A DNA stretch of 34,994 bases, taken from the NCBI GenBank assembly GCA_903893745.1, contig CAITNF010000006.1:1-34994 (forward strand). The letters are read 5' to 3'. The notes under the pieces are model-generated. The model had not been told where the DNA came from, did no database searches, and saw nothing but the letters and a program-made list of their open reading frames with translations. Positions 968 to 25,641 of this stretch are shown here, in pieces (the stretch's first letter is position 1; each line of letters starts with the position of its first letter). Position numbers and translations under genes: made by a program. The DNA comes from an uncultured Actinomycetes bacterium (lineage in GTDB: Bacteria > Actinomycetota > Acidimicrobiia > Acidimicrobiales > RAAP-2).

Positions 968-2580
968 GTCGATTCGCGAGCGGTCCACTGCACGGTGGCG
1001 CACTCGCCCTCTACTTCGTCCTTCTGCCTTACGTAATCAGCACGCGCTGGACGCTTGCGGCCCACCAGACGAATGGTCAAGTTATCCGTGGACTGCTGTG
1101 CGTGCTCGGCCTCTTTTGGATCTTGTTCGTTCTCCAGTTACTTCGCAACGTCGTACTAGTGCGTCGCGGCGAAGAGCCCACTCACGGCGGAAGCGCCTGG
1201 CTCGCGGGACTGATTGTCACCGTACTGTCGTTCCTCGCCCTCTCTCACGCTCCGGTCACGACCAAAACTCCCGTGCCAGTGACCGTGACAGCGAGTGTGC
1301 GTACTCACGCTCCAGCCCCCGGTGGTCTGCCGATATCCGCCCTGCCAACCGTGGGTGCGTTGCCCTTCGCGCTGGTGGCCAAGCGAAGAAGTGATGAACT
1401 GCGCTACAGCAACTTGGTCACCACTGATGAAGAAATCGACAACGATATTGCTCTTCTTCGAGGGGCTAATGCTCCATTGCTCTCTCGACTTCGAACGCTC
1501 AAGGGTGCAGCGCGAGACGGCGTACTCGCCGCGAAGAGTGACCTGGCGGAAGTTGAAGCTTGCGAAAGTCGAGAGCCACTCGTGGCTTGCGTGGTGGGTC
1601 ACGACGGTGCGACCACATTCATTTCTTTCGCGTCCGAGGGTGGTCGACTTCGCATTCCACTTCATTGGAGTTCGGACAAGTTGGTGAGCGAGCTCGTGAC
1701 CATCCACCGCAGCGGCCGGTTGATGTGCTCGTCGCAGGTCGACGAACTAGTGCGAGCCCTGGCCACTCGCTCACTGAATTCAACCTTGGTGCTCTACTTA
1801 GGCGATCCAATTGATCTCGATGATGCGCTACGAGCCTGCTGCGTCACCATTGAACGAGTCGAACACGAAGCAATGCTGGCGAACCTGATTCGTGAGCCTT
1901 CGGACTCACCCGCTAACGCAGTGCGCGGAGAAATTCGGGTGGAACTCTTGCGAGCCGAACCATCCGTGCAAGGACTCATCGAGCCATTTCTTCCCACCCT
2001 GCGCCGACGCTGCGTGGAGATGGTGGCCTACCTCAGTTTGCACCGACACGAACCAATCACCGGTGAACGACTTCGTACCCGGGTACTCGCTCGAGGTGAC
2101 GTCGACGCGTCATCTCGCACGCTGGCTAATACCGCGAGCTCCGTACGGCGCAGTCTCGGCATCGACGTCAACGGTCCACGACTTCAGCCGGTCACTTCGT
2201 CCGGGCTGTACCAAACTCACGGGGTAACGAGCGACGTTGAAATCTTCCACGCGTTAGTCACCCGCGCGCGCCAAGTACCTGAGGCACAGCGCGGACTCCT
2301 ACTCGAAGAGGCCCTTGGACTGGTACGCGGCGAACCCCTCGCGAGCGTTCTGCGCGGTTTCGAATGGTTTCTTGCCGAAGGACACTCCGCTCGCTTACAG
2401 CGTGACGGTGAGTGGGCCTCACTCGCGTTGTACCACGACTGTTTAGAGCGCGACGACTCCGAACGAGCCTTCTGGGCCCTCGAGCGAGGACGACTGCTCG
2501 ACCCCTACAGCGACGAGTTGGTCCAGGCACTGGCTCGCGTGCCGCGACTACGCGAGTTTGGCGGCAATCGATCCCGCTGA
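943..2580 (+). CDS. Membrane-anchored BTAD/SARP-type transcriptional regulator
   Basis: A 545-residue protein. Near the N-terminus are two clear membrane segments (about residues 19-40 and 48-73) and a third at about 85-102. A middle region of unknown fold follows (about 130-340). At about 357-430 is a winged-helix-like stretch (VEMVAYLSLHRHEPITGERL and then SSVRRSLGIDV), and at 430-535 an alpha-helical TPR-like bacterial transcriptional activator domain (EEALGLVRGEPLAS; WALERGRLLDPYSDELVQAL). Known families with this order are BTAD/LysM-type regulators of actinobacteria; no LysM is seen here. The frame is open back to ATG 361, but I start at ATG 943 because 371-967 is occupied by another gene and the upstream translation is Arg/Asp-rich without domain character. 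The stop overlaps the convergent ddl 3' end by 33 bases. What it regulates is unknown. Confidence 0.75.
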   Translation: MATQSSAVGRFASGPLHGGALALYFVLLPYVISTRWTLAAHQTNGQVIRGLLCVLGLFWILFVLQLLRNVVLVRRGEEPTHGGSAWLAGLIVTVLSFLALSHAPVTTKTPVPVTVTASVRTHAPAPGGLPISALPTVGALPFALVAKRRSDELRYSNLVTTDEEIDNDIALLRGANAPLLSRLRTLKGAARDGVLAAKSDLAEVEACESREPLVACVVGHDGATTFISFASEGGRLRIPLHWSSDKLVSELVTIHRSGRLMCSSQVDELVRALATRSLNSTLVLYLGDPIDLDDALRACCVTIERVEHEAMLANLIREPSDSPANAVRGEIRVELLRAEPSVQGLIEPFLPTLRRRCVEMVAYLSLHRHEPITGERLRTRVLARGDVDASSRTLANTASSVRRSLGIDVNGPRLQPVTSSGLYQTHGVTSDVEIFHALVTRARQVPEAQRGLLLEEALGLVRGEPLASVLRGFEWFLAEGHSARLQRDGEWASLALYHDCLERDDSERAFWALERGRLLDPYSDELVQALARVPRLREFGGNRSR

Positions 2581-3654
2581 GCGCAGTACCAGTCCGTCTG
2601 CTCCCGCGGCGCTGTAGCGATGCGCGGGTCGTTCGGTCGCCTCGGCGAGCAGGTCACTCAGCAGTTGCGTGAACGAAAGCGGTGGGTCCACGAACAAGTG
2701 TTTGGCGAGTGAGCCCGGAATGGTATTGATCTCGTTCACGTAGAGCTCATGCTCATTGGCCAAAAAGTCGACTCGGGCGACACCACGGACTGACGCTACG
2801 TTCGCGAGAATTCCTACGGCATTTTCAATGGCCGCAACTTGAGCGGGCGCGAGAACGGCCGGAAGCTCGCGTGGCGCCGAGACCATTCCCTCACCGCCCA
2901 CGTACTTATCGCGGTAGTGCAAGATCTCCGCATCCGTCGAGCGACGAATCGGTCGCTCGATGGCCGACAGCGACAACGTCGGGTACGTTCGCAGCGCAAT
3001 CTGAAGGTCAAAGAGATCAGGACGATACGGCTCCACGACACAGCCCAAGGCCAGGTGCGTGTTCGTCGCCAGCCGCGCCTTCGCGGTCGCCAGATCGGCC
3101 ACGACATCAATACCAATCGAGGAGCCCCCGAATCGAGGTTTCAAAATGTAAGGCCCTTCAAACGGCAAGGTTGCCGTGTCATTCGTTAAGAGCACTCGCG
3201 CCAGAGCGGGCAGTCCCGCCGCGTGCACCACCCCCGCGAAAGCCCACTTATCCATCCCCAAGGCGGCACCCGCCACGCTTGGTCCGCTGTAGGCAATCCC
3301 AGCTAGATCAAGCGCCGCTTGCATCGTGCCGTCTTCACCCGGTCCGCCGTGAGTTGCCATAATGATGGCGTCGAGTGGCAGGGGGCGTTCTTTGCCTCGT
3401 CGCCCCGCGTCAGCGAAGAATCCGCCACCTCGACCACAGCGCAGCGTTAACGGAGTGGAGCCGCCCGGGAGTCCGTCCAAAAAGGCACTGGCTTCAACCC
3501 CGTGGGCCACGACGTGAAACTCGCCAGTCTTGGTCCAATAGATTCCCACGCAGTCGCGATGCGTTCGTTCAAGCTCGCGCAGTGCTTGGAGACCGGTAAG
3601 GATTGAGATGTCGTGCTCGGGCGTTGGACCGCCGAATAAAACACCACTCGTCAC
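2548..3654 (-). CDS. ddl: D-alanine--D-alanine ligase
   Basis: Makes the D-Ala-D-Ala dipeptide for peptidoglycan from two D-alanines and ATP in the cytoplasm. The 368 residues start with VLFGGPTPEHDISILTG, the Ddl N-terminal signature (GG..EH.(V/I)S). The ATP-grasp part contains KPRFGGSSIGI (nucleotide-binding loop), RVDFLANEHELYVNEINTIP (metal-binding Glu and Asn), and a Pro-Gly-Ser ending (TIPGSL). Length fits the family. The GTG start at 3654 is preceded by AGAGG six bases away. It is the last gene of a hydrolase-murF-like-ddl operon, 30 bases after the ligase, which fits supply and use of D-Ala-D-Ala. The last residues read over the 3' end of the convergent BTAD gene, so no separate terminator space exists. 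Confidence 0.95.
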   Translation of the reverse strand: MTSGVLFGGPTPEHDISILTGLQALRELERTHRDCVGIYWTKTGEFHVVAHGVEASAFLDGLPGGSTPLTLRCGRGGGFFADAGRRGKERPLPLDAIIMATHGGPGEDGTMQAALDLAGIAYSGPSVAGAALGMDKWAFAGVVHAAGLPALARVLLTNDTATLPFEGPYILKPRFGGSSIGIDVVADLATAKARLATNTHLALGCVVEPYRPDLFDLQIALRTYPTLSLSAIERPIRRSTDAEILHYRDKYVGGEGMVSAPRELPAVLAPAQVAAIENAVGILANVASVRGVARVDFLANEHELYVNEINTIPGSLAKHLFVDPPLSFTQLLSDLLAEATERPAHRYSAAGADGLVLRSAGSIAAKLA

Positions 3655-3684: not shown

Positions 3685-5262
3685 TCAAGGGTAGTGGTCG
3701 GGAAGATCGTTTAAGTACAACACGCCATCGGCGGGGCCCAATGCCGAGCGCACCCACGCCACGGCCTCTTCGCGAGTATCAAAACGCGTTACCGGGCCGT
3801 CAAATCCGGCCACTAGTGGGCGGACGTTGGTGCGTCCGACAATGACGAGCTCGGCGTTCATGGCCGAGACCTGGCGGGCCAACAGTGCGTTCTCGCGGTA
3901 CTGCTCAACCCCAAGCTCAATCATGCCCGGGGTGATGACCACTCGCCGACCCGTCAAGGAGAGCGAGGACAGTAACGACAGCGCCGCCGCCGCGCTTGAC
4001 GGATTGGCATTAAAGGTGTCGTCGATCACGGTCACGCCCGACGGCGCGACGACGACATTTGACCGATTCGCAATAGGGCCGATTCGCCGAAGTGCTTCGG
4101 CGATTTCACTCGTTTCCACGCCGAGTTCGAGCGCGCCCGCAATCGCGCAGGCGACGTTCGTGACCTGCACGCCAAGGATAACTTCGCACTCAGCGACGTC
4201 CTGACCGTCAATCGACACTCGCCACTGTCCAGAATCCTCTCGCACCAGCACTGACGCGTGCGAGTTGGCGCTACCCGCGGTGCGAACTTTTTTTCCCGCC
4301 ATCTCCAACACGCTCACCCAGCGACTCAGCCGAGGGTCATCGACATTGAGCACCACAATGGGGGCTCGCTCAGTTATCTCAAACTTCGCACGGTCGATTA
4401 CCTCAAGGCTCTTCATTCGCTCAAGGTGCACGGGGCCAATCGCGGTAACTATCGAAATATCTGGCACGCACCACGACGTGAGATCGCGAATCTCCCCCGG
4501 CCCGTAAGTGCCCATTTCGGCGATGAAAATTTGGGCGTCATCGGAGAGATGTTCGTTCACCGCCCTCGAGAGTCCAGCTCGATTATTAAAACTGCGAGGT
4601 GACGCCACGACGCCACGACCCGAACCCAAGATGTCGGCCAGATGGTTCTTGGTTGACGTCTTTCCAAAAGAGCCGGTAATTGCCACCACTCTCGGATGCA
4701 CGCGAGCGAGTTGCGCACTCGCCTGGCGCACAAACCGGTTAGCACTTCGCCTTTCGTAGGGGGCGAGCACTCGAACCACGACGTCGAGCACGAGCGGCAC
4801 CGCCCACACCATCGCGGCTGCTCCCAGCCATACGCGCGGCGTGGCCAAGCTCACCATGGCGACGGCCACCCCAACAACGATGGTGAGGCCCGCAATGGTG
4901 GTAGCTCGACGAGTCCAGTGCAGTGCGCTCGTACGACCCCGTATGGTCAGGCCCTGCGGGCACGTTAGACCGTAGAGTGCGCTCAAAGCTGCGATGAAGA
5001 GATCACTTTGCAGCACTGCGGCGACGAGCAGGGCGACCATGAATACGTGGGAGCGCGTAAAAGGTCGAGATGATCGAAATCGCTCAATCGATTTTGCCGA
5101 GGCCACGGTTGGTGACGACCAACGACCGAGGAATCGGATCATTGAAGCTGGTTCGTAGTGTTCACGCTGCAATACACGCAGCCAACGCAGCAACTGCGCA
5201 CCGTACGCCCCAGCGAGCGCGACGGCTAGCAGGCCTGAAGCGATGACGCGCATGACGCTCAC
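3685..5262 (-). CDS. murF: MurF-like Mur ligase with N-terminal membrane domain
   Basis: Likely adds D-Ala-D-Ala to UDP-MurNAc-tripeptide (MurF reaction) or a related amide-forming step. Of 525 residues, 1-185 hold about four hydrophobic segments (around 5-25, 73-100, 120-140, 145-167) and take the place of the normal UDP-MurNAc-binding domain 1. From 193 the Mur ligase core begins: GSFGKTSTK P-loop (198-205), FNNRAGL (225-231), AEMGTYGPGEI (248-258), GPVHLERMKSLE (276-287), NVDDPRLSRW (306-315) and DDTFNANP (414-421, matching MurF DD(S/T)(Y/F)NANP). Domain 3 runs to the end (LYLNDLPDHYP). The GTG start overlaps the hydrolase stop by 4 bases, and ddl follows after 30 bases. The adjacent ddl supports a MurF role; the missing domain 1 means a different substrate cannot be excluded. 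A shortened paralogue lies at 18307-19287. Confidence 0.85.
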   Translation of the reverse strand: MSVMRVIASGLLAVALAGAYGAQLLRWLRVLQREHYEPASMIRFLGRWSSPTVASAKSIERFRSSRPFTRSHVFMVALLVAAVLQSDLFIAALSALYGLTCPQGLTIRGRTSALHWTRRATTIAGLTIVVGVAVAMVSLATPRVWLGAAAMVWAVPLVLDVVVRVLAPYERRSANRFVRQASAQLARVHPRVVAITGSFGKTSTKNHLADILGSGRGVVASPRSFNNRAGLSRAVNEHLSDDAQIFIAEMGTYGPGEIRDLTSWCVPDISIVTAIGPVHLERMKSLEVIDRAKFEITERAPIVVLNVDDPRLSRWVSVLEMAGKKVRTAGSANSHASVLVREDSGQWRVSIDGQDVAECEVILGVQVTNVACAIAGALELGVETSEIAEALRRIGPIANRSNVVVAPSGVTVIDDTFNANPSSAAAALSLLSSLSLTGRRVVITPGMIELGVEQYRENALLARQVSAMNAELVIVGRTNVRPLVAGFDGPVTRFDTREEAVAWVRSALGPADGVLYLNDLPDHYP

Positions 5263-18306: not shown

Positions 18307-19287
18307 CTACGGCAGATGGTCGGGTAGTTCGCCGAGGTACAGCACCGCGTCAGTAGTAGTGACGTGTTCTTTGATCCAGCGCACTGATTGTTCAAAGGTG
18401 TCGACTCGAATGGCCCCGTTGGCGCCATCGATGAGGGGCGCCGCGTTCAGTCTTCCTACGGCGATGAGTTGCGCGTGATTTGAGTCAATTCGCGTCGCCA
18501 TTCGGTAGCTAAGTTCAGTGTGCCCTGCACCTTCGACAACGCCCGGAGTGACCACGAGTCGCTGCCCGCTCACCGGACGAGCGAGAAACTCATCGAGGAC
18601 GTCGGAGATATCGTTCCAGCTGCTGAGGCGAGTCGCGTCAACGATCAGAGCCCCATTGGGAGCGACCGCGTCAACCACTCGACCACTGACCTGCCCATTT
18701 GGATGGTGTCCCAGAAGCACCGTGACGAGCAATGGAGCTCCGACAATGGTGACCACGAATGCTTCCGCCATGAGCCCGAGAAGGTAGCCCGCAATAAAAA
18801 TTGCTCCGGCAACGAGCGTCGCCCCGATTGCGAGACCGGTGCGCGGCCGTTCACTAGGTTCACGCCTCCGTCGACGAATGGGCATCCCCCAGGGAAAGAC
18901 GATCCCGTACAGACACGTTGCGACGATTACGAGTTGTGGCGCTCTGGTGATCTCCAACATCGCTAGTACTACAACGGCGACAAGCGTGAACGAAGCGGGA
19001 CGCACAATGCGGCTGTTCGTGAAGCGCTCATCTCGTCGAGTCAGGTGCTGGGCGAGGAATTGCGATGCCGCCCGCACTGGCGTGGCGACGGTTCGTGAGA
19101 CCAAGCTCGCGTGGCGGGTGACGGCGAAGGCTGAACTTGCCGGTGGGAAGACCCACAGCGCAAAAACCCTGACGACCGCTCGGCGGCCATCGACCCGACT
19201 CGCGACCCTCGACCACCGTAAAATCTGACAAAGCCAAGCAATTCCCCAAATAATTAGTTCAATTAGGGGCTTTAGCGGGTAGTGCAT
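18307..19287 (-). CDS. Core-deleted paralogue of the membrane MurF-like ligase
   Basis: A 326-residue membrane protein. Residues 1-190 hold about four hydrophobic segments (around 8-24, 98-128, 150-170, 173-192) and match the membrane domain of the ligase at 3685-5262, for example CLYGIVFPWGMPIR against ALYGLTCPQGLTIR. Residues about 213-326 match its C-terminal domain: QRLVVTPGVVE against RRVVITPGMIE, AVGRLNAAPLIDG against IVGRTNVRPLVAG, and the ends LYLGELPDHLP and LYLNDLPDHYP. The central ATPase domain, including the P-loop, is absent and DDTFNANP is replaced by VDATRLSS. The frame is intact, so it could be a functional non-catalytic partner rather than a dead gene. The ATG at 19287 has TACACT eight bases upstream. 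It diverges from the first ABC operon. Confidence 0.8.
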   Translation of the reverse strand: MHYPLKPLIELIIWGIAWLCQILRWSRVASRVDGRRAVVRVFALWVFPPASSAFAVTRHASLVSRTVATPVRAASQFLAQHLTRRDERFTNSRIVRPASFTLVAVVVLAMLEITRAPQLVIVATCLYGIVFPWGMPIRRRRREPSERPRTGLAIGATLVAGAIFIAGYLLGLMAEAFVVTIVGAPLLVTVLLGHHPNGQVSGRVVDAVAPNGALIVDATRLSSWNDISDVLDEFLARPVSGQRLVVTPGVVEGAGHTELSYRMATRIDSNHAQLIAVGRLNAAPLIDGANGAIRVDTFEQSVRWIKEHVTTTDAVLYLGELPDHLP

Positions 19288-19348
19288 TCACGAAGAGTGT
19301 ACGACCATTACCAGATGCCGACTCGCAATGACTGATACCTTCTCTTTG

Positions 19349-21370
19349 ATGAATTTGTTGGAAGTTCGAAATCTCCAAATCACCTACAAGCTTCGAACCT
19401 CGGACGTCGTTGCGGTGGATGACGTCTCGTTCTCCATTGCCGCTGGCGAGTGCCTGGGCGTCGTGGGTGAATCGGGCTGCGGCAAGACAACGGTGGGCAT
19501 GGCCATCATGCAACTACTGGCCGGTAACGGGCATATTTCTGCTGGCGAAATTCTGCTTAATGGCAAGAACTTGGTCGGACTACCCGACAAGGAGTTGCGC
19601 AAATTTAGAGGACGTACCGTCGCACTAATTCCGCAAGACCCAATGACATCGCTCAACCCTGTGATGCGAATTGGGGACCAAGTGGTTGAGGCGTACCGCA
19701 TTCACCATCGTGTGTCGAAGAAAGTTGCGGCGGAACGGGCGCTCGAAATGCTGCGCATGGTCGAGATTCCTAACGCCGAAGAACGCTTCAACCAATATCC
19801 TTTTGAGCTCTCTGGAGGTTTGCGCCAGCGTGTCATCATTGCCATGGCGCTCGTGTGCGAACCTCAACTCCTCATCGCCGATGAGCCCACTACCGCACTC
19901 GACGTGACTATCCAGGCCCAGATTCTCGACGTGCTCGACAACCTGCGAGAAAAATACAAGTTGGCCGTCATGTTGATCACCCACGACATGGGCGTCATCG
20001 CCAGCCGGACCGACCGGGTAGTGGTGATGTACGCCGGACGCGCCGCCGAAGAAGCATCAACGTCAGAGATTTTTCGTGATATGCGCCACCCTTATACGCG
20101 CGCGCTGCTGGCGTCAGTGCCGTCCATCGAAGGAGACCAGCCCACCCGGCTTCACTCAATTCCCGGACTCCCACCCGACCTCACGAAACCAATCGAAGGT
20201 TGTCGATTCAGGGCTCGTTGCGAATTCGCAACTGAGGAGTGTCGCCGAGCAGAGCCCTCGCTGACGGCGAGCGGTGATGGACATCGATTCGCCTGCTTCA
20301 ACCCCTTAAGTATCGGGTGGGATGGCGTGCGTGAAAGTGGCGCCGCGATCCCAATCCGTCGACGGGGTGACGAAATTCTGGTGTCCTTGCAAAACCTCAC
20401 GAAGGACTTCCCACTTCGAGCCAAAGGAATCTTCACTCGCGAGCGACGAGTGGTGAGCGCCGTCTCTGACATCACGTTGGATGTCTATCGTGGTGAGACG
20501 CTCGGAATTGTCGGCGAGTCCGGTAGCGGCAAGACCACCGTGGGCAAGCTCATCATGGGACTTGAGAAGCCCACTAGCGGGTCTATTTCTTTTACGGATG
20601 CTGACCCAAGTCACGCCCCGGTGACTCAGTTGGCGCTCGCAAAAATTCGCCAGATGATTTTCCAAGACCCCTACGCGTCGCTCAACCCTCGAAAGCGGAT
20701 CGTTGACCTTATTGGTGAACCGCTCGACATTCAAGGAACTTTAAAGGGGCCTGAACAGACTCGCCGAATTGGTGAGCTCCTTGATGAGGTGGGACTCCCC
20801 CAAGAGTCGCTCTATCGCTATCCGCACGAACTCTCTGGCGGGCAGCGACAACGTGTTGGTTTAGCTCGGGCGATGGCTCTGCAACCAGCGATCATCATCG
20901 CCGATGAACCCGTTTCTTCGCTGGACGTGTCAATTCAGGCTCAGATGCTGAACCTCTTAAGTGACCTGCGTGACGAAAAGGGACTCTCCTACTTATTTAT
21001 TAGTCACGACTTGGCAGTCGTTCGCTACATAGCGGACCGAATTGGCGTGATGTATCTCGGTAAACTGGTGGAAATTGGTCCAGCCCATCAGGTGTTTACT
21101 CAACCAGCTCACCATTACACCCGAGCTCTGCTGGACGCGGTACCCGTCGCTAATCCTGACGCCGCACGAGGTCGGTCCGGTTCACGACTCGGTGGGGAAA
21201 TCCCTAGCGCAATCGATCCACCATCGGGCTGTCGTTTTCGAACTCGCTGCCCCGCGGCCACGGAGGAGTGCACCGCCGTAGAGCCGACCTACGCCGAAGC
21301 TGGGGATAACCACCTGGTAGCTTGCCACCACCCTCTTCGAGCCACTGTCGCCATCCGGGCAAAGGTATAA
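19349..21370 (+). CDS. ABC importer, fused OppD-OppF type ATPase (system 1)
   Basis: Energises uptake of peptides or similar solutes at the inner face of the membrane. It is 673 residues with two complete nucleotide-binding domains. Domain 1: Walker A GESGCGKTT, signature LSGGLRQR, Walker B LLIADEPTTALD, then the OppD/DppD C-terminal Cys region (GCRFRARCEFATEECR). Domain 2: Walker A GESGSGKTT, signature LSGGQRQRVG, Walker B IIIADEPVSSLD, and again GCRFRTRCPAATEECT. The four-Cys patterns at both ends are typical of oligopeptide-importer ATPases. I choose ATG 19349: it lies seven bases after TACCTT, and it aligns with the start of the paralogue at 29788-31803; an in-frame ATG at 19328 would add seven residues. 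Permease genes follow after 7 bases. Confidence 0.93.
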   Translation: MNLLEVRNLQITYKLRTSDVVAVDDVSFSIAAGECLGVVGESGCGKTTVGMAIMQLLAGNGHISAGEILLNGKNLVGLPDKELRKFRGRTVALIPQDPMTSLNPVMRIGDQVVEAYRIHHRVSKKVAAERALEMLRMVEIPNAEERFNQYPFELSGGLRQRVIIAMALVCEPQLLIADEPTTALDVTIQAQILDVLDNLREKYKLAVMLITHDMGVIASRTDRVVVMYAGRAAEEASTSEIFRDMRHPYTRALLASVPSIEGDQPTRLHSIPGLPPDLTKPIEGCRFRARCEFATEECRRAEPSLTASGDGHRFACFNPLSIGWDGVRESGAAIPIRRRGDEILVSLQNLTKDFPLRAKGIFTRERRVVSAVSDITLDVYRGETLGIVGESGSGKTTVGKLIMGLEKPTSGSISFTDADPSHAPVTQLALAKIRQMIFQDPYASLNPRKRIVDLIGEPLDIQGTLKGPEQTRRIGELLDEVGLPQESLYRYPHELSGGQRQRVGLARAMALQPAIIIADEPVSSLDVSIQAQMLNLLSDLRDEKGLSYLFISHDLAVVRYIADRIGVMYLGKLVEIGPAHQVFTQPAHHYTRALLDAVPVANPDAARGRSGSRLGGEIPSAIDPPSGCRFRTRCPAATEECTAVEPTYAEAGDNHLVACHHPLRATVAIRAKV

Positions 21371-21377
21371 CGGAACC

Positions 21378-22379
21378 ATGCGCTATCTACTCTCTCGCTT
21401 AGCTCAAGGTGTTCTCACGTTGTTTGGCGTCAGTCTGCTGACCTTCTTCCTACCTAAATTTTTCCAAGCACCTACAGGACTAGCCGTGCAAGTACTCGGC
21501 CAGCGAGCCACCCCCCACGCGATTTTGGGTTTCTTGCACGAATATGGTCTCGACCGCTCGCTACCGGTGCAGTACTGGCACTGGCTCGTTGCGGCGCTAC
21601 ACGGGAATTTTGGCATCTCCTACCAGGCCACGGCTACGCAGGGCACGCCCGTTACGGTAAATCAATTAATTGGTTCGAATGTCTGGCGCTCAATTTGGCT
21701 TACCTTTGTGCCAACCATTCTCTCGGTACTTATTGCAATTCCAATTGGACTCACTCAAGCGGTGCGTCGCAACCGCCCGTACGATCACGTGATGACGACG
21801 GTGGTCTACGTGGTGTACTCAACTCCAGCCGTGTTGGTCTGCTTGCTGTTGGTGTACTACTTCGCCATCCAAATTCACGTCGGTACCGTTTCGATTGATG
21901 CGCTCGCCGTGCAGATCTCACCCTCAGCTTTCCCCATGTGGGCGTTGCACCATTTACGTCAGTTCATCCTCCCGTTCGTGGGCATTATTGCCCTATCCGT
22001 TGGCGGACTAACTCGATTTATGCGAGGTTCGGCCCTCGACACGCTGGTGCAAGACCACGTCCGGACCGCTCGAGCCAAGGGGGCGAGTCCCACGCGGGTT
22101 TTGTTCAAGCACGTGTTGCGGCCATCGCTGATTCCAATGCTCACCATCATTGGTCTATCCATTCCGAGCATTATCGGTGGAGCGTTAATTGTTGAAAGCG
22201 TCTTTAACTATCCGGGCATGGGAATTCTGGCGGTGCGCGCTACGACCGTGGGCGACTTCACCGTCGTGATGGCCCTCACGATCTACACCGCGGGTTTGAC
22301 CGTCATTGGCAACTACCTGGCCGATATCTTCACTGCGATTGCCGACCCTCGCGTTCGTCTAGGGAAAGGGCGCAACTGA
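21378..22379 (+). CDS. ABC importer permease, DppB/OppB type (system 1)
   Basis: Membrane subunit of a peptide/nickel-type importer, 333 residues. It begins with the family's MRYLLSRLAQGVLTLFGVSL first helix and has about six membrane segments. The EAA loop that contacts the ATPase is clear (DHVRTARAKGASPTRVLFKH), followed by LIVESVFNYPGMG, a DppB hallmark. The start lies 7 bases after the ATPase gene, and its stop shares a base with the next start (TGATG), so translation of the two permeases should be coupled. Substrate unknown. Confidence 0.94.
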   Translation: MRYLLSRLAQGVLTLFGVSLLTFFLPKFFQAPTGLAVQVLGQRATPHAILGFLHEYGLDRSLPVQYWHWLVAALHGNFGISYQATATQGTPVTVNQLIGSNVWRSIWLTFVPTILSVLIAIPIGLTQAVRRNRPYDHVMTTVVYVVYSTPAVLVCLLLVYYFAIQIHVGTVSIDALAVQISPSAFPMWALHHLRQFILPFVGIIALSVGGLTRFMRGSALDTLVQDHVRTARAKGASPTRVLFKHVLRPSLIPMLTIIGLSIPSIIGGALIVESVFNYPGMGILAVRATTVGDFTVVMALTIYTAGLTVIGNYLADIFTAIADPRVRLGKGRN

Positions 22380-23350
22380 TGGAACCTTCGTCGAACGAAG
22401 TAGTTCGCGACGAGCTCGTGAGCGGCGTCGTTGCGAGCCGCGGGGCGGGTACCGTAGCGGGCACCGGAACGATGCGCCAGCAGATGTGGCGCGTATTTCG
22501 CCAGAATAAATTAGCGCTCGCGTCACTAGCATTCGTAGTGATCCTCATTCTCGGCGCCGTAATTTATCCCTTCTTCTTTAACGGCCTCTACTGGAAGTCA
22601 GCACCGATTGACCTCGCCAACACGTGTTTCAATTCCACAGCACCGGGCTATACGGGTAGCGCACCTCCCAGTGCGCACCACTGGTTAGGTTGCATCAAGG
22701 GTTACGACACGATCGGACTGCTGTTCTACTCAGGTCGCTTCTCATTAGGTATTGGTTTTCTTTCGGCCATCGTCACGATGAGCCTGGGGGTCACCTACGG
22801 CATGCTGTCGGGCTACATCGGCGGCAAACTCGACGCAATTTTGATGCGAATCGTCGACATGATGCTCTCAATTCCTGGTCTCTACCTACTTATTTTGACC
22901 ATTGTGTTGTTTGGAAGGTCCTTTGTTGCTCTCACCGTCGTCATCGGATTCACCGGTTGGTTTGGGGTAGCTCGTTTGATGCGCGCTGAAACGCAGTCAC
23001 TTCGCGAACGTGATTACGTCGCGGCCGCCATCACGATGGGCGCGAGCCGACAAAGAATTATCTATCGCCATATTCTGCCGAACGCGATGTCAACAATGGT
23101 GACTGCGGGCACATTCGCCCTGGGCGACGCGATTTTGGCGTTGGCCGGAATTGGCTTCCTAGGACTTGGCTTACAGCCGCCCCAGTTCGACTGGGGAACC
23201 TTAATTCAGCGAGGTTCCGACGTTTTCAAACTTGGCTACTGGTGGACCATTTGGCCAATTGCCGCACTCTTTATTCTCTTTGTGTTATCGACCAACTACA
23301 TTGGCGACGCTATGCGTGACGCCTTTGAGGTGCGCCTTCAAGAGCAGTAG
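22379..23350 (+). CDS. ABC importer permease, DppC/OppC type (system 1)
   Basis: Second membrane subunit, 323 residues. A 45-residue polar N-terminus precedes the first helix (LALASLAFVVILILGAVIY). An unusual 60-residue extracytoplasmic segment with two cysteines (ANTCFNSTAP, HWLGCIKGYD) follows; most DppC proteins have a shorter loop, and system 2 lacks the cysteines. Further segments include LGVTYGMLSGYIGGKLDAI. The EAA loop is DYVAAAITMGASRQRIIYRH, and the end has GFLGLGLQPPQFDWGTLI, the DppC signature. A terminator-like hairpin follows at once (23351-23370), separating it from the binding-protein gene. Confidence 0.93.
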   Translation: MEPSSNEVVRDELVSGVVASRGAGTVAGTGTMRQQMWRVFRQNKLALASLAFVVILILGAVIYPFFFNGLYWKSAPIDLANTCFNSTAPGYTGSAPPSAHHWLGCIKGYDTIGLLFYSGRFSLGIGFLSAIVTMSLGVTYGMLSGYIGGKLDAILMRIVDMMLSIPGLYLLILTIVLFGRSFVALTVVIGFTGWFGVARLMRAETQSLRERDYVAAAITMGASRQRIIYRHILPNAMSTMVTAGTFALGDAILALAGIGFLGLGLQPPQFDWGTLIQRGSDVFKLGYWWTIWPIAALFILFVLSTNYIGDAMRDAFEVRLQEQ

Positions 23351-23512: not shown

Positions 23513-23526
23513 AGTTGGGGGGAAGA

Positions 23527-25641
23527 ATGCAGCATTACAAACTACGTCGCACGCTAATTGGGAGTCTTGCCGGTTCCTTATTTGTGCTTTCGGCACTCGT
23601 TGCACCACTGGCGTCAAGTGCTAATGGTGTTACGGCCAGTCATGATCCGGCAAAAGCCAGTAAGGCAAACACGATGCGTGTGCCCTGGTCGCCGAATCAG
23701 CACTTGCACAAGCTCAATCCCTTTTATTCGGCTGCGTACTGCTACGCCGCGGACATTTCGATTCAGCAGATGATGTACCGTCCGGGCTACTACTTCGGTT
23801 TGGGATCGTCAATCGCGCTGCAGCCCCAGCTCTCGGCCTACAACGCGCCAGTCTTCTCGTCAGACTCGAGTAACAACACCATCGTGACGTTCAAGGTAAA
23901 GCCGTGGATGTGGTCGAACGGCAACACGCACGCGACCGACCTCAACGGTAAGGCCACTTCGGCCAAGGCCTCGATGCAGAAGACCACCGCCGCTGACGCC
24001 ATCTACTGGTTGAACATGGATAAAGCGATGAGCCAGGGAACCTTCTACACACCTGATGGCACGTTGAAGAGTGCCGGTGCCTACGCGGTCTGCGGTTACG
24101 TCCCCAAGATGGGTCTACCTGACGCCGTGTTGAACGTCACCGCGCCCAAGGGTCTCTCGGGCGACACCGTGCAGATCACCTTCAAGGGCCCCCAGAACCA
24201 TGACTGGCTGATTTACAACGAACTTTCACAGATGCAGCCAATGCCTAAGGCGTGGGACACCACTGCTGCGGCTGGGGCCAAGACTTTCACTAAGCCCTAC
24301 ACCGGTTCGGCTAGCACTTGTTCGTCAGAAAGCTGGTCGGCAATTAAGACTGACGGCAGCGACCTTTGCTCCTTCGAGTACGGCTACCAGCGCAACTTAC
24401 TTTTGAATGACCCCTACTGGCACTGGGCTAATGGTCCCTACCGCGTGAGCACAATTGGCTACGCCAACGGTGTCATCTCTGGTAACGACGTTCAGATCGC
24501 GAACTTGAACTACAGCGGACCAGTAAAGGCCCACGCCATTCAAAAGCTCGTCTACGTGCCCGAAACTGACACGCCGACGGAGACCAACCAATGTGCAGCT
24601 GGTCAGTTGGACTCGTGTTACGTCGATCCCAGTTTGATTACGGCGTCGCCGGGTATTGGCAAGGTTGGTACCTTGCTCGACCCGAAAATTAAGAAGCACT
24701 TCGTGCCGATTGCCGCCACATCGTGGGCTATCAGTTACTTGATGTTCAACTCGGGTAATGCGAACTCCGTTTCGCCCTGTCTGGTCGATGGCAAGCAGAG
24801 CAACACGTGCGCCTGGGCCGGATTGGACAACCAGCAGTACTTCCGCCAAGCCATGTACCGTGCACTCGACCAGAAGTATCTGATCAGTCACGTTCTGAAC
24901 GGCTACGCCGTGCCCACGACATCGGCCATTCCGCCGGTCGGTGGTAAGGCATTCCAGGGCAAGGTGAAAGATGCGATTCCGTTCAACTTGAAGGCTGCCA
25001 TCAAACTGATGACGGACCACGGTTGGAGTACACCAGACGGCGTTAACGCATCGACCTGTCAACTCGATAACTGTGGAACATCGGACTGGCCAATTGCGAA
25101 GGGTGCCGCAGCGTCGTTATCGCTGCTCTACCCGTCGGGCGATCCCACCACTGACTATCAGATCAACGACGAGGTAGCGATGTGGATTCGAGCTGGTATC
25201 AAGGTCACGGCTCAGGCCGAGCCCGTTACCACCGTTGGTGACGACTGCTTCGGAGCTACCGATCACAAGTGGTCACTTTGCCTCTACGGCGGATGGATCT
25301 ACGCTCCCGACTTCTACCCATCGGGTGAGACGTTGTTTGGCACTGGAGCGGGATCGAACTCGTGGGGCTACTCGAGTCCGATTATGGACGCCTTAATTGC
25401 GGCAACAACGCAAAACGGATCGTACAAACTTTCCCAGACTTTGAGCGCCGCCGATGCAGCGAAGTACGGTTCTTCGGCTGCGGCAGGTCAATCGTTTGTC
25501 AGCTGGTCGAATATTGACTTGCCAGTTCTCTGGCAGCCACAATCGACTGGTTTTAGGTTGCAGTTGAAGACGGTCAAGGGTGCTCAGGCGCCCAACCCAC
25601 TTGGTAACCGCAACCCGGAGTACATCACGAAGTTGCGTTAG
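23527..25641 (+). CDS. ABC importer solute-binding protein, family 5 (system 1)
   Basis: Extracytoplasmic binding protein of a peptide/nickel-type importer, 704 residues, clearly longer than the usual 500-550. It has an N-terminal signal peptide (LRRTLIGSLAGSLFVLSALV, about residues 5-24) with a small-residue cleavage region (APLASSANG) and no cysteine, so it lacks the lipobox usual in Gram-positive binding proteins. Twelve cysteines in the mature part suggest several disulfides. Family features are QQMMYRPGYYFG, the FRQAMYRALDQKYL region and APDFYPSGETLFG. The ATG at 23527 has GGGGGGAAG just upstream. It has its own promoter and terminator, and follows the permease genes. The ligand cannot be predicted. 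Confidence 0.9.
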   Translation: MQHYKLRRTLIGSLAGSLFVLSALVAPLASSANGVTASHDPAKASKANTMRVPWSPNQHLHKLNPFYSAAYCYAADISIQQMMYRPGYYFGLGSSIALQPQLSAYNAPVFSSDSSNNTIVTFKVKPWMWSNGNTHATDLNGKATSAKASMQKTTAADAIYWLNMDKAMSQGTFYTPDGTLKSAGAYAVCGYVPKMGLPDAVLNVTAPKGLSGDTVQITFKGPQNHDWLIYNELSQMQPMPKAWDTTAAAGAKTFTKPYTGSASTCSSESWSAIKTDGSDLCSFEYGYQRNLLLNDPYWHWANGPYRVSTIGYANGVISGNDVQIANLNYSGPVKAHAIQKLVYVPETDTPTETNQCAAGQLDSCYVDPSLITASPGIGKVGTLLDPKIKKHFVPIAATSWAISYLMFNSGNANSVSPCLVDGKQSNTCAWAGLDNQQYFRQAMYRALDQKYLISHVLNGYAVPTTSAIPPVGGKAFQGKVKDAIPFNLKAAIKLMTDHGWSTPDGVNASTCQLDNCGTSDWPIAKGAAASLSLLYPSGDPTTDYQINDEVAMWIRAGIKVTAQAEPVTTVGDDCFGATDHKWSLCLYGGWIYAPDFYPSGETLFGTGAGSNSWGYSSPIMDALIAATTQNGSYKLSQTLSAADAAKYGSSAAAGQSFVSWSNIDLPVLWQPQSTGFRLQLKTVKGAQAPNPLGNRNPEYITKLR

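Follow-up and report, generated by a model that had tools for sequence, protein, structure and literature searches.

A MurF paralogue without its ATPase domain, encoded beside an oligopeptide ABC importer in the Acidimicrobiales

Introduction

What can a Mur ligase do once the part that handles ATP is gone? The question is raised by a window of 34,994 nucleotides (contig CAITNF010000006.1) from an uncultured member of the Acidimicrobiales, which carries on its minus strand two genes related to murF, the gene for UDP-MurNAc-tripeptide--D-Ala-D-Ala ligase. One is full-length; the other, at 18307..19287, is much shorter. A preliminary description of the locus proposed that the short gene is an intact frame of 326 codons, paralogous to the ligase encoded at 3685-5262 and alignable with it at both ends, from which the ATPase core has been removed, and that selection may have kept it. 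The frame is indeed intact, giving a product of 326 aa against the 525 aa of its paralogue. Its relationship to MurF, its distribution, the constraint on it and its gene neighbourhood are described below, followed by the roles that it may have.

The Full-Length Membrane MurF

The full-length protein (3685..5262, minus strand) matches Pfam Mur_ligase_M and Mur_ligase_C, as well as TIGR01143, the latter at 205 bits, below the model cut-off of 288.6. The next-best match to TIGR01143 in the genome is far lower (106.9 versus 205.9 bits for the 3685-5262 protein). The canonical N-terminal Mur domain is largely replaced by a membrane domain. The gene adjoins ddl, encoding D-Ala-D-Ala ligase (2548..3654, minus strand; Pfam and NCBIfam). 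Near ddl, positions 361-2580 encode a protein of 739 aa that neither NCBIfam nor Pfam matches at E 0.01, and a relative of this protein lies beside ddl in 6/6 other mapped genomes.

Of 79 genomes sampled from the order, 44 match the long protein at E 1e-30. In 32 of those 44 the match begins at or before residue 24, that is, within the membrane domain. Judged by sequence, membrane-anchored MurFs are common across this order. No description of this widespread form was found in the literature searched.

The Short Protein and Its Likeness to MurF

The two proteins resemble one another at both ends, as the preliminary description had it. BLASTP gives a C-terminal match of 34% identity over 131 columns (E 7e-20) that reaches both C-termini, where LYLGELPDHLP of the short protein faces LYLNDLPDHYP of the long one, and an N-terminal match of 27% (E 8e-6). 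Profile comparison with hhalign strengthens both. The membrane domain of the short proteins (residues 1-195 in the window copy, 18703..19287, minus strand, with its hydropathy peaks) scores 99.6% (E 9e-24) against the N-termini of 35 full-length MurFs. Control comparisons gave 0.3% for an ABC permease profile and at most 0.8% for 20 column shuffles, which rules out a chance likeness of hydrophobic segments. MurF domain 3, the C-terminal domain (residues 202-326, 18310..18684, minus strand), scores 100% (E 2e-39) against a domain 3 profile made from the 32 of the 35 full-length MurFs with the exact motif.

Pairwise alignment, which had been proposed as a check, thus matches the ends and leaves the central region of the ligase without a counterpart. 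Counted on the ligase, the aligned membrane columns end at residue 167 and the C-terminal match sets in at residue 395, so that the short protein lacks about 225 residues in between. The earlier claim of a missing core with its P-loop therefore stands, while its size of about 200 residues was slightly low. Pfam Mur_ligase_M, which matches the long protein at 7.7e-26, finds nothing in the short one. The same deletion of the central ATPase domain with its P-loop is present in all four short proteins identified (see below).

Two further features are common to the four. The alteration of the NANP motif reported for the window copy is a replacement of DDTFNANP by DATRLSSW (residues 217-224, 18616..18639, minus strand), and the alignment shows the NANP loop replaced in 4/4 short proteins, so that none of them has the DDxxNANP motif of MurF ligase domain 3. 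In addition, an extra loop of 30-35 residues follows the first membrane helix (about residues 56-89 in the window copy, 19021..19122, minus strand); at these positions more than 90% of the 35 full-length MurFs have gaps. By sequence, the short protein is a paralogue of membrane-anchored MurF that lacks the whole ATPase domain, and it cannot be a ligase by itself.

Domain models recognize little of it. The window copy is unmatched by Mur_ligase_C as well as by Mur_ligase_M in Pfam, and by TIGR01143 at E 0.01 in NCBIfam; within the short family Mur_ligase_C is weak, matching two of four members with a best E of 0.012. One of four members matches Pfam Acyl_transf_3 (E 0.0024; 17.4 bits, where the cut-off is 31), which was set aside as a chance likeness of membrane sequence. 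Searching PDB sequences with a profile of the short family brought up one match, at E 1.3, also taken as chance. Promoter-like sites (1 versus 0.5 in shuffled sequence) and terminator-like sites (2 versus 1.2) are near the shuffled numbers, and a tRNA search of the window found none.

What Remains of the Fold

The AlphaFold2 (AF2) model of the short protein is poor overall, with a mean pLDDT of 49.7, and fair over residues 211-320, where means per ten residues are 58-78. With VIA-align, the model matches residues 312-447 of E. coli MurF (1gg4) at Z 13.2, with 2.4 Å over 120 residues, and 4cvk at the same Z of 13.2. The seven best rows are all MurF domain 3 (Z 12.2-13.2), followed at about 12 by pseudomurein ligases and further MurFs, where rows within 1 of each other are ties. 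By Foldseek, the top row is an Mpl domain (E 6e-4), MurF comes tenth, and the 50 rows listed consist of Mur-type ligases and FolC. According to the model, then, the fold of domain 3 is kept in the short protein.

The conserved residues have fared less uniformly. Full-length MurFs have 179 columns of at least 90% conservation, and of these 82 are absent from every one of the four short proteins. Of the remaining 97, 42 keep the residue in at least three short proteins and 55, the NANP loop among them, are changed or mostly gaps, a class that includes about 8 columns belonging to the deleted core or gapped in most of the four proteins. An excerpt of PMC3060825 assigns the incoming amino acid or peptide to the C-terminal domain of Mpl and MurC. 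Hence the ATP side of the ligase is lost, and the fold may retain its peptide side.

Orthologues and Distribution

Relatives of the short protein over nearly its whole length are encoded in 4 of 99 genomes of the genus, namely, the window genome and three others, designated G092, G093 and G094. The search for orthologues with the same deletion in related genomes, suggested earlier, therefore yielded three. The window protein is 30-36% identical to the other three, and all four share the core deletion, the changed NANP loop and the extra segment. In the other 95 genomes no short gene was found; 92 of these match the part shared with full-length MurF. Short frames containing domain 3 in G034, G036, G038, G080 and G087 run to contig ends and were rejected as assembly cuts.

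Outside the genus, a profile of the four short proteins found no further whole-profile match among the matches listed for 172 genomes of the family, a search in which single matches were itemised down to about E 7e-20 and 16 genomes had no match. In 397 sampled genomes of the order, the same profile at E 1e-25 found only the two bearers within the sample. The short form is a new core-deleted variant of a widespread membrane ligase form, found in one genus within the genomes searched.

In a tree on the shared columns, the four short proteins form one clade against 35 full-length MurFs, with support 100/99 (10 of 45 extracted rows were dropped, their last 250 residues being identical to another's). 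The tree carries a long-branch warning, strongest for the window copy with its branch of 2.03. The genomes themselves are not so grouped. In a tree of OGDH, built by a quick method with 35 rows of the 96 genomes with a match and including three bearers (G093 left out), the bearers do not group together and G091, a genome without the short gene, is sister to G092; a clade of bearers without G091 is rejected (AU p 1.3e-6). It follows that losses or transfer occurred.

Constraint on the Short Gene

Between G093 and G094, the closest pair, the short gene has a dN/dS of about 0.14, a rough ratio given a dS of 1.65, near saturation; pN/pS is 0.30 (bootstrap 0.25-0.37). Neutral evolution, which would have contradicted the idea that selection kept the gene, is not seen. 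Full-length murF in the same pair has a similar dN/dS of 0.138. Three other genes of this pair lie well below the short gene: 0.03 for the fused ATPase gene (DF) and 0.04 for the permease gene B, both of the neighbouring importer, and 0.04 for ddl. Pairs further apart, which are saturated, give slightly higher values for the short gene than for murF (0.30-0.32 versus 0.20-0.25). In a neutral simulation at 1 substitution per site, 0/5000 frames stayed free of stops, and the short gene has a coding-type distribution of GC by codon position. The selection ratio covers G093/G094, and the window copy, for which the genomes searched contained no close relative, is judged by its open frame and kept residues. 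The short gene is under purifying selection, at least in one pair. The pattern expected of a conserved pseudoenzyme is thus found: catalytic parts are lost in 4/4 orthologues, and purifying selection is present where measured, in G093/G094. Strain-specific decay is ruled out by the orthologues, the clade and the constraint together.

The Neighbouring Oligopeptide Importer

Only 40 bp separate the start codon of the short gene from that of a divergent gene, 19328..21370 (plus strand), encoding a fused DppD/DppF-like ATPase (DF; NCBIfam). It is followed on the same strand by Opp/Dpp permeases B (21378..22379; NCBIfam Opp4B and others, below curated cut-off) and C (22379..23350; Opp4C and others, likewise below cut-off) and by a solute-binding protein of the SBP_bac_5 type (23515..25641; Pfam PF00496, E 4e-22; no NCBIfam match at 1e-10). 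These neighbours, designated the type-1 importer, make up the usual Opp/Dpp set.

The arrangement is not peculiar to the window. In 4/4 genomes the short gene is adjacent and divergent to an oligopeptide ABC importer, the linkage to be expected of an accessory protein of an Opp/Dpp system, and the neighbouring importers of G092, G093 and G094 each include a relative of the window DF ATPase, in every case the only ATPase match of this kind in the genome. The murF-ddl pair is on another contig than the short gene in these three genomes and about 13 kb from it in the window. The importers differ in gene order: DF leads in the window, whereas the other three begin with B and have the solute-binding gene at their far end, on the other strand. 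The clusters of G093 and G094 share their surroundings and that of G092 has different ones, compared on one side only as the cluster begins 494 bases into its sequence stretch. Together with the window, this makes three chromosomal places.

Between G092 and G094, identity is 41% for the short protein, 53% for MurF and 80-83% for DF, B and the solute-binding protein. Thus, no co-evolution of the short protein with the importer is visible. The solute-binding proteins of type 1 are encoded at 23515-25641 in the window, L033:15863-17860 and L034:4337-6340. Between G093 and G094 the dS of this gene is 0.21, much below the 0.68-1.65 of the short gene, DF and B, pointing to either recombination or strong codon bias. 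The clusters of G092 and G093 also encode, between permease C and DF, proteins of about 170 aa that are 49% identical to each other (L032:6954-7478 and L034:9066-9575); no likeness to them was seen among the window ORFs.

Importer Types and Chromosomal Sites

A tree of joined importer proteins (n = 8) splits into two types with support 100/100. Type 1 comprises the first copy in the window and those of G091, G092, G093 and G094, and type 2 the second copy in the window and those of G057 and G070. The typing covers these eight transporters and four more ATPases, out of 89 genomes with an ATPase match. Four of the five type-1 importers in the tree adjoin a short gene. Branching within type 1 is not settled by either the joined or the single-gene trees: single-gene trees join the window importer to those of G092-G094 weakly (72/66, 53/15 and 42/9), and in the C tree G091 groups with the G092-G094 importers in place of the window importer.

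In G057 and G070, the type-2 importer is flanked by a TIGR01777 gene and by one that, judged by eye, is RNase HII-like. At this same site the window has the short gene and the type-1 importer ahead of type 2, and G091 (97% complete) has a type-1 importer with no short gene. That importer can, therefore, do without the short protein. In G092 the site has no importer, and in G094 only a solute-binding protein. A Mutator-family transposase gene (PF00872; L032:3262-4551) sits in the G092 cluster between the genes for the solute-binding protein and the DF ATPase, which fits mobilisation.

Possible Roles

The short protein probably has a new, non-enzyme job beside a peptide-uptake pump. We propose, with a probability of roughly 0.4, that it is a non-catalytic membrane protein serving the type-1 importer, probably through the use of domain 3 for peptide binding or docking. 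Sequence, clade and constraint show that a duplicated membrane MurF lost its ATPase domain, acquired a loop behind the first membrane helix and was retained as a non-catalytic membrane protein. It would work with the divergently encoded importer: its membrane domain would hold it at the inner membrane, and domain 3, on the cytoplasmic side, would bind cell-wall-type peptides or dock a partner, thereby regulating the importer or handing peptide onward. We infer a function with the importer from the linkage kept at three places. Its connection to cell-wall peptides is reasoned by analogy with murein tripeptide uptake in E. coli, where, in the part of PMC6022919 that treats it, MppA is described as delivering the tripeptide through Opp or Dpp. 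Counting against an importer role are the differing gene order, the G091 importer that has no short gene, possible co-mobilisation, and the dN/dS of DF and B (0.03-0.04), much below that of the short gene. The same holds for the absence of visible co-evolution, the weak single-gene support for joining the window importer to those of G092-G094, the 55 altered or gapped columns and the low mean pLDDT of the model. A more specific version, in which the protein is a dedicated membrane adaptor derived from MurF that senses or receives imported cell-wall peptides at the ABC importer and couples uptake to the last cytoplasmic peptidoglycan ligation, is quite unlikely.

The preliminary description had thought of a regulatory or scaffold partner in mixed complexes with the ligase. 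The short protein would use the shared membrane domain to pair with full-length membrane MurF, which it would regulate or position. The membrane domains are clearly homologous, several conserved residues are kept, and all four genomes encode a full-length MurF as well. However, the short gene lies outside the murF-ddl cluster in 4/4 genomes, and its membrane domain has diverged and gained a loop. MurF does not need the short protein, given that the search found the short gene in only 4 of 99 genomes and that 92 of the other 95 match the shared part. That the short gene adjoins a peptide importer in all four genomes speaks against MurF as sole partner. This pairing is unlikely, if an alternative to be reckoned with.

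The linkage itself can be read otherwise. A membrane protein with an unrelated new role might merely travel with the importer cluster on a mobilised segment, as the transposase inside the G092 cluster, the patchy distribution, the rejection of the bearers as one clade in the OGDH tree, the G091 importer without a short gene and the fast divergence of the short gene would all allow. Such hitch-hiking must nevertheless have left the pairing intact at three places, even where the importer gene order differs and in spite of the low identity, 30-36%, between the window copy and the others, and we think it unlikely as well. Two further accounts are very improbable. The branch of 2.03 leading to the window copy might be that of a decaying pseudogene, against which stand four open frames of the same architecture, the dN/dS of 0.14 in the closest pair, the coding-type GC by codon position and the neutral simulation. 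The kept fold of domain 3 might likewise be that of one half of a split ligase with the ATPase domain supplied by another protein, yet the NANP loop is lost in all four and no Mur ATPase domain occurs among the neighbouring genes scanned.

Relation to Known Systems

The short protein is like membrane-anchored MurF in its membrane domain and domain 3, both homologous, and unlike it in lacking the ATPase domain, the P-loop and the NANP loop and in having an extra loop. MurT of the MurT/GatD pair is, in an excerpt of PMC6085368, another case of Mur central and C-terminal domains put to a different job. MurT, however, retains the central ATPase domain and is active, whereas the short protein has no Mur central domain with a P-loop. 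Among the papers listed, our literature search found no report of a membrane-anchored, pseudo-, paralogous or core-deleted MurF, most subscription journals lying outside its coverage, and nothing relevant on MurF with dipeptide ABC transport or on dipeptide binding by MurF. To our knowledge, a Mur-derived membrane protein is not a known part of Opp/Dpp importers, and our impression is that core-deleted paralogues of an essential ligase kept by selection have rarely been described in bacteria.

Should the short protein indeed serve the importer, peptide uptake and cell-wall synthesis would be joined by a direct molecular link, and the protein would reveal which of its functions a Mur ligase domain retains without ATP.
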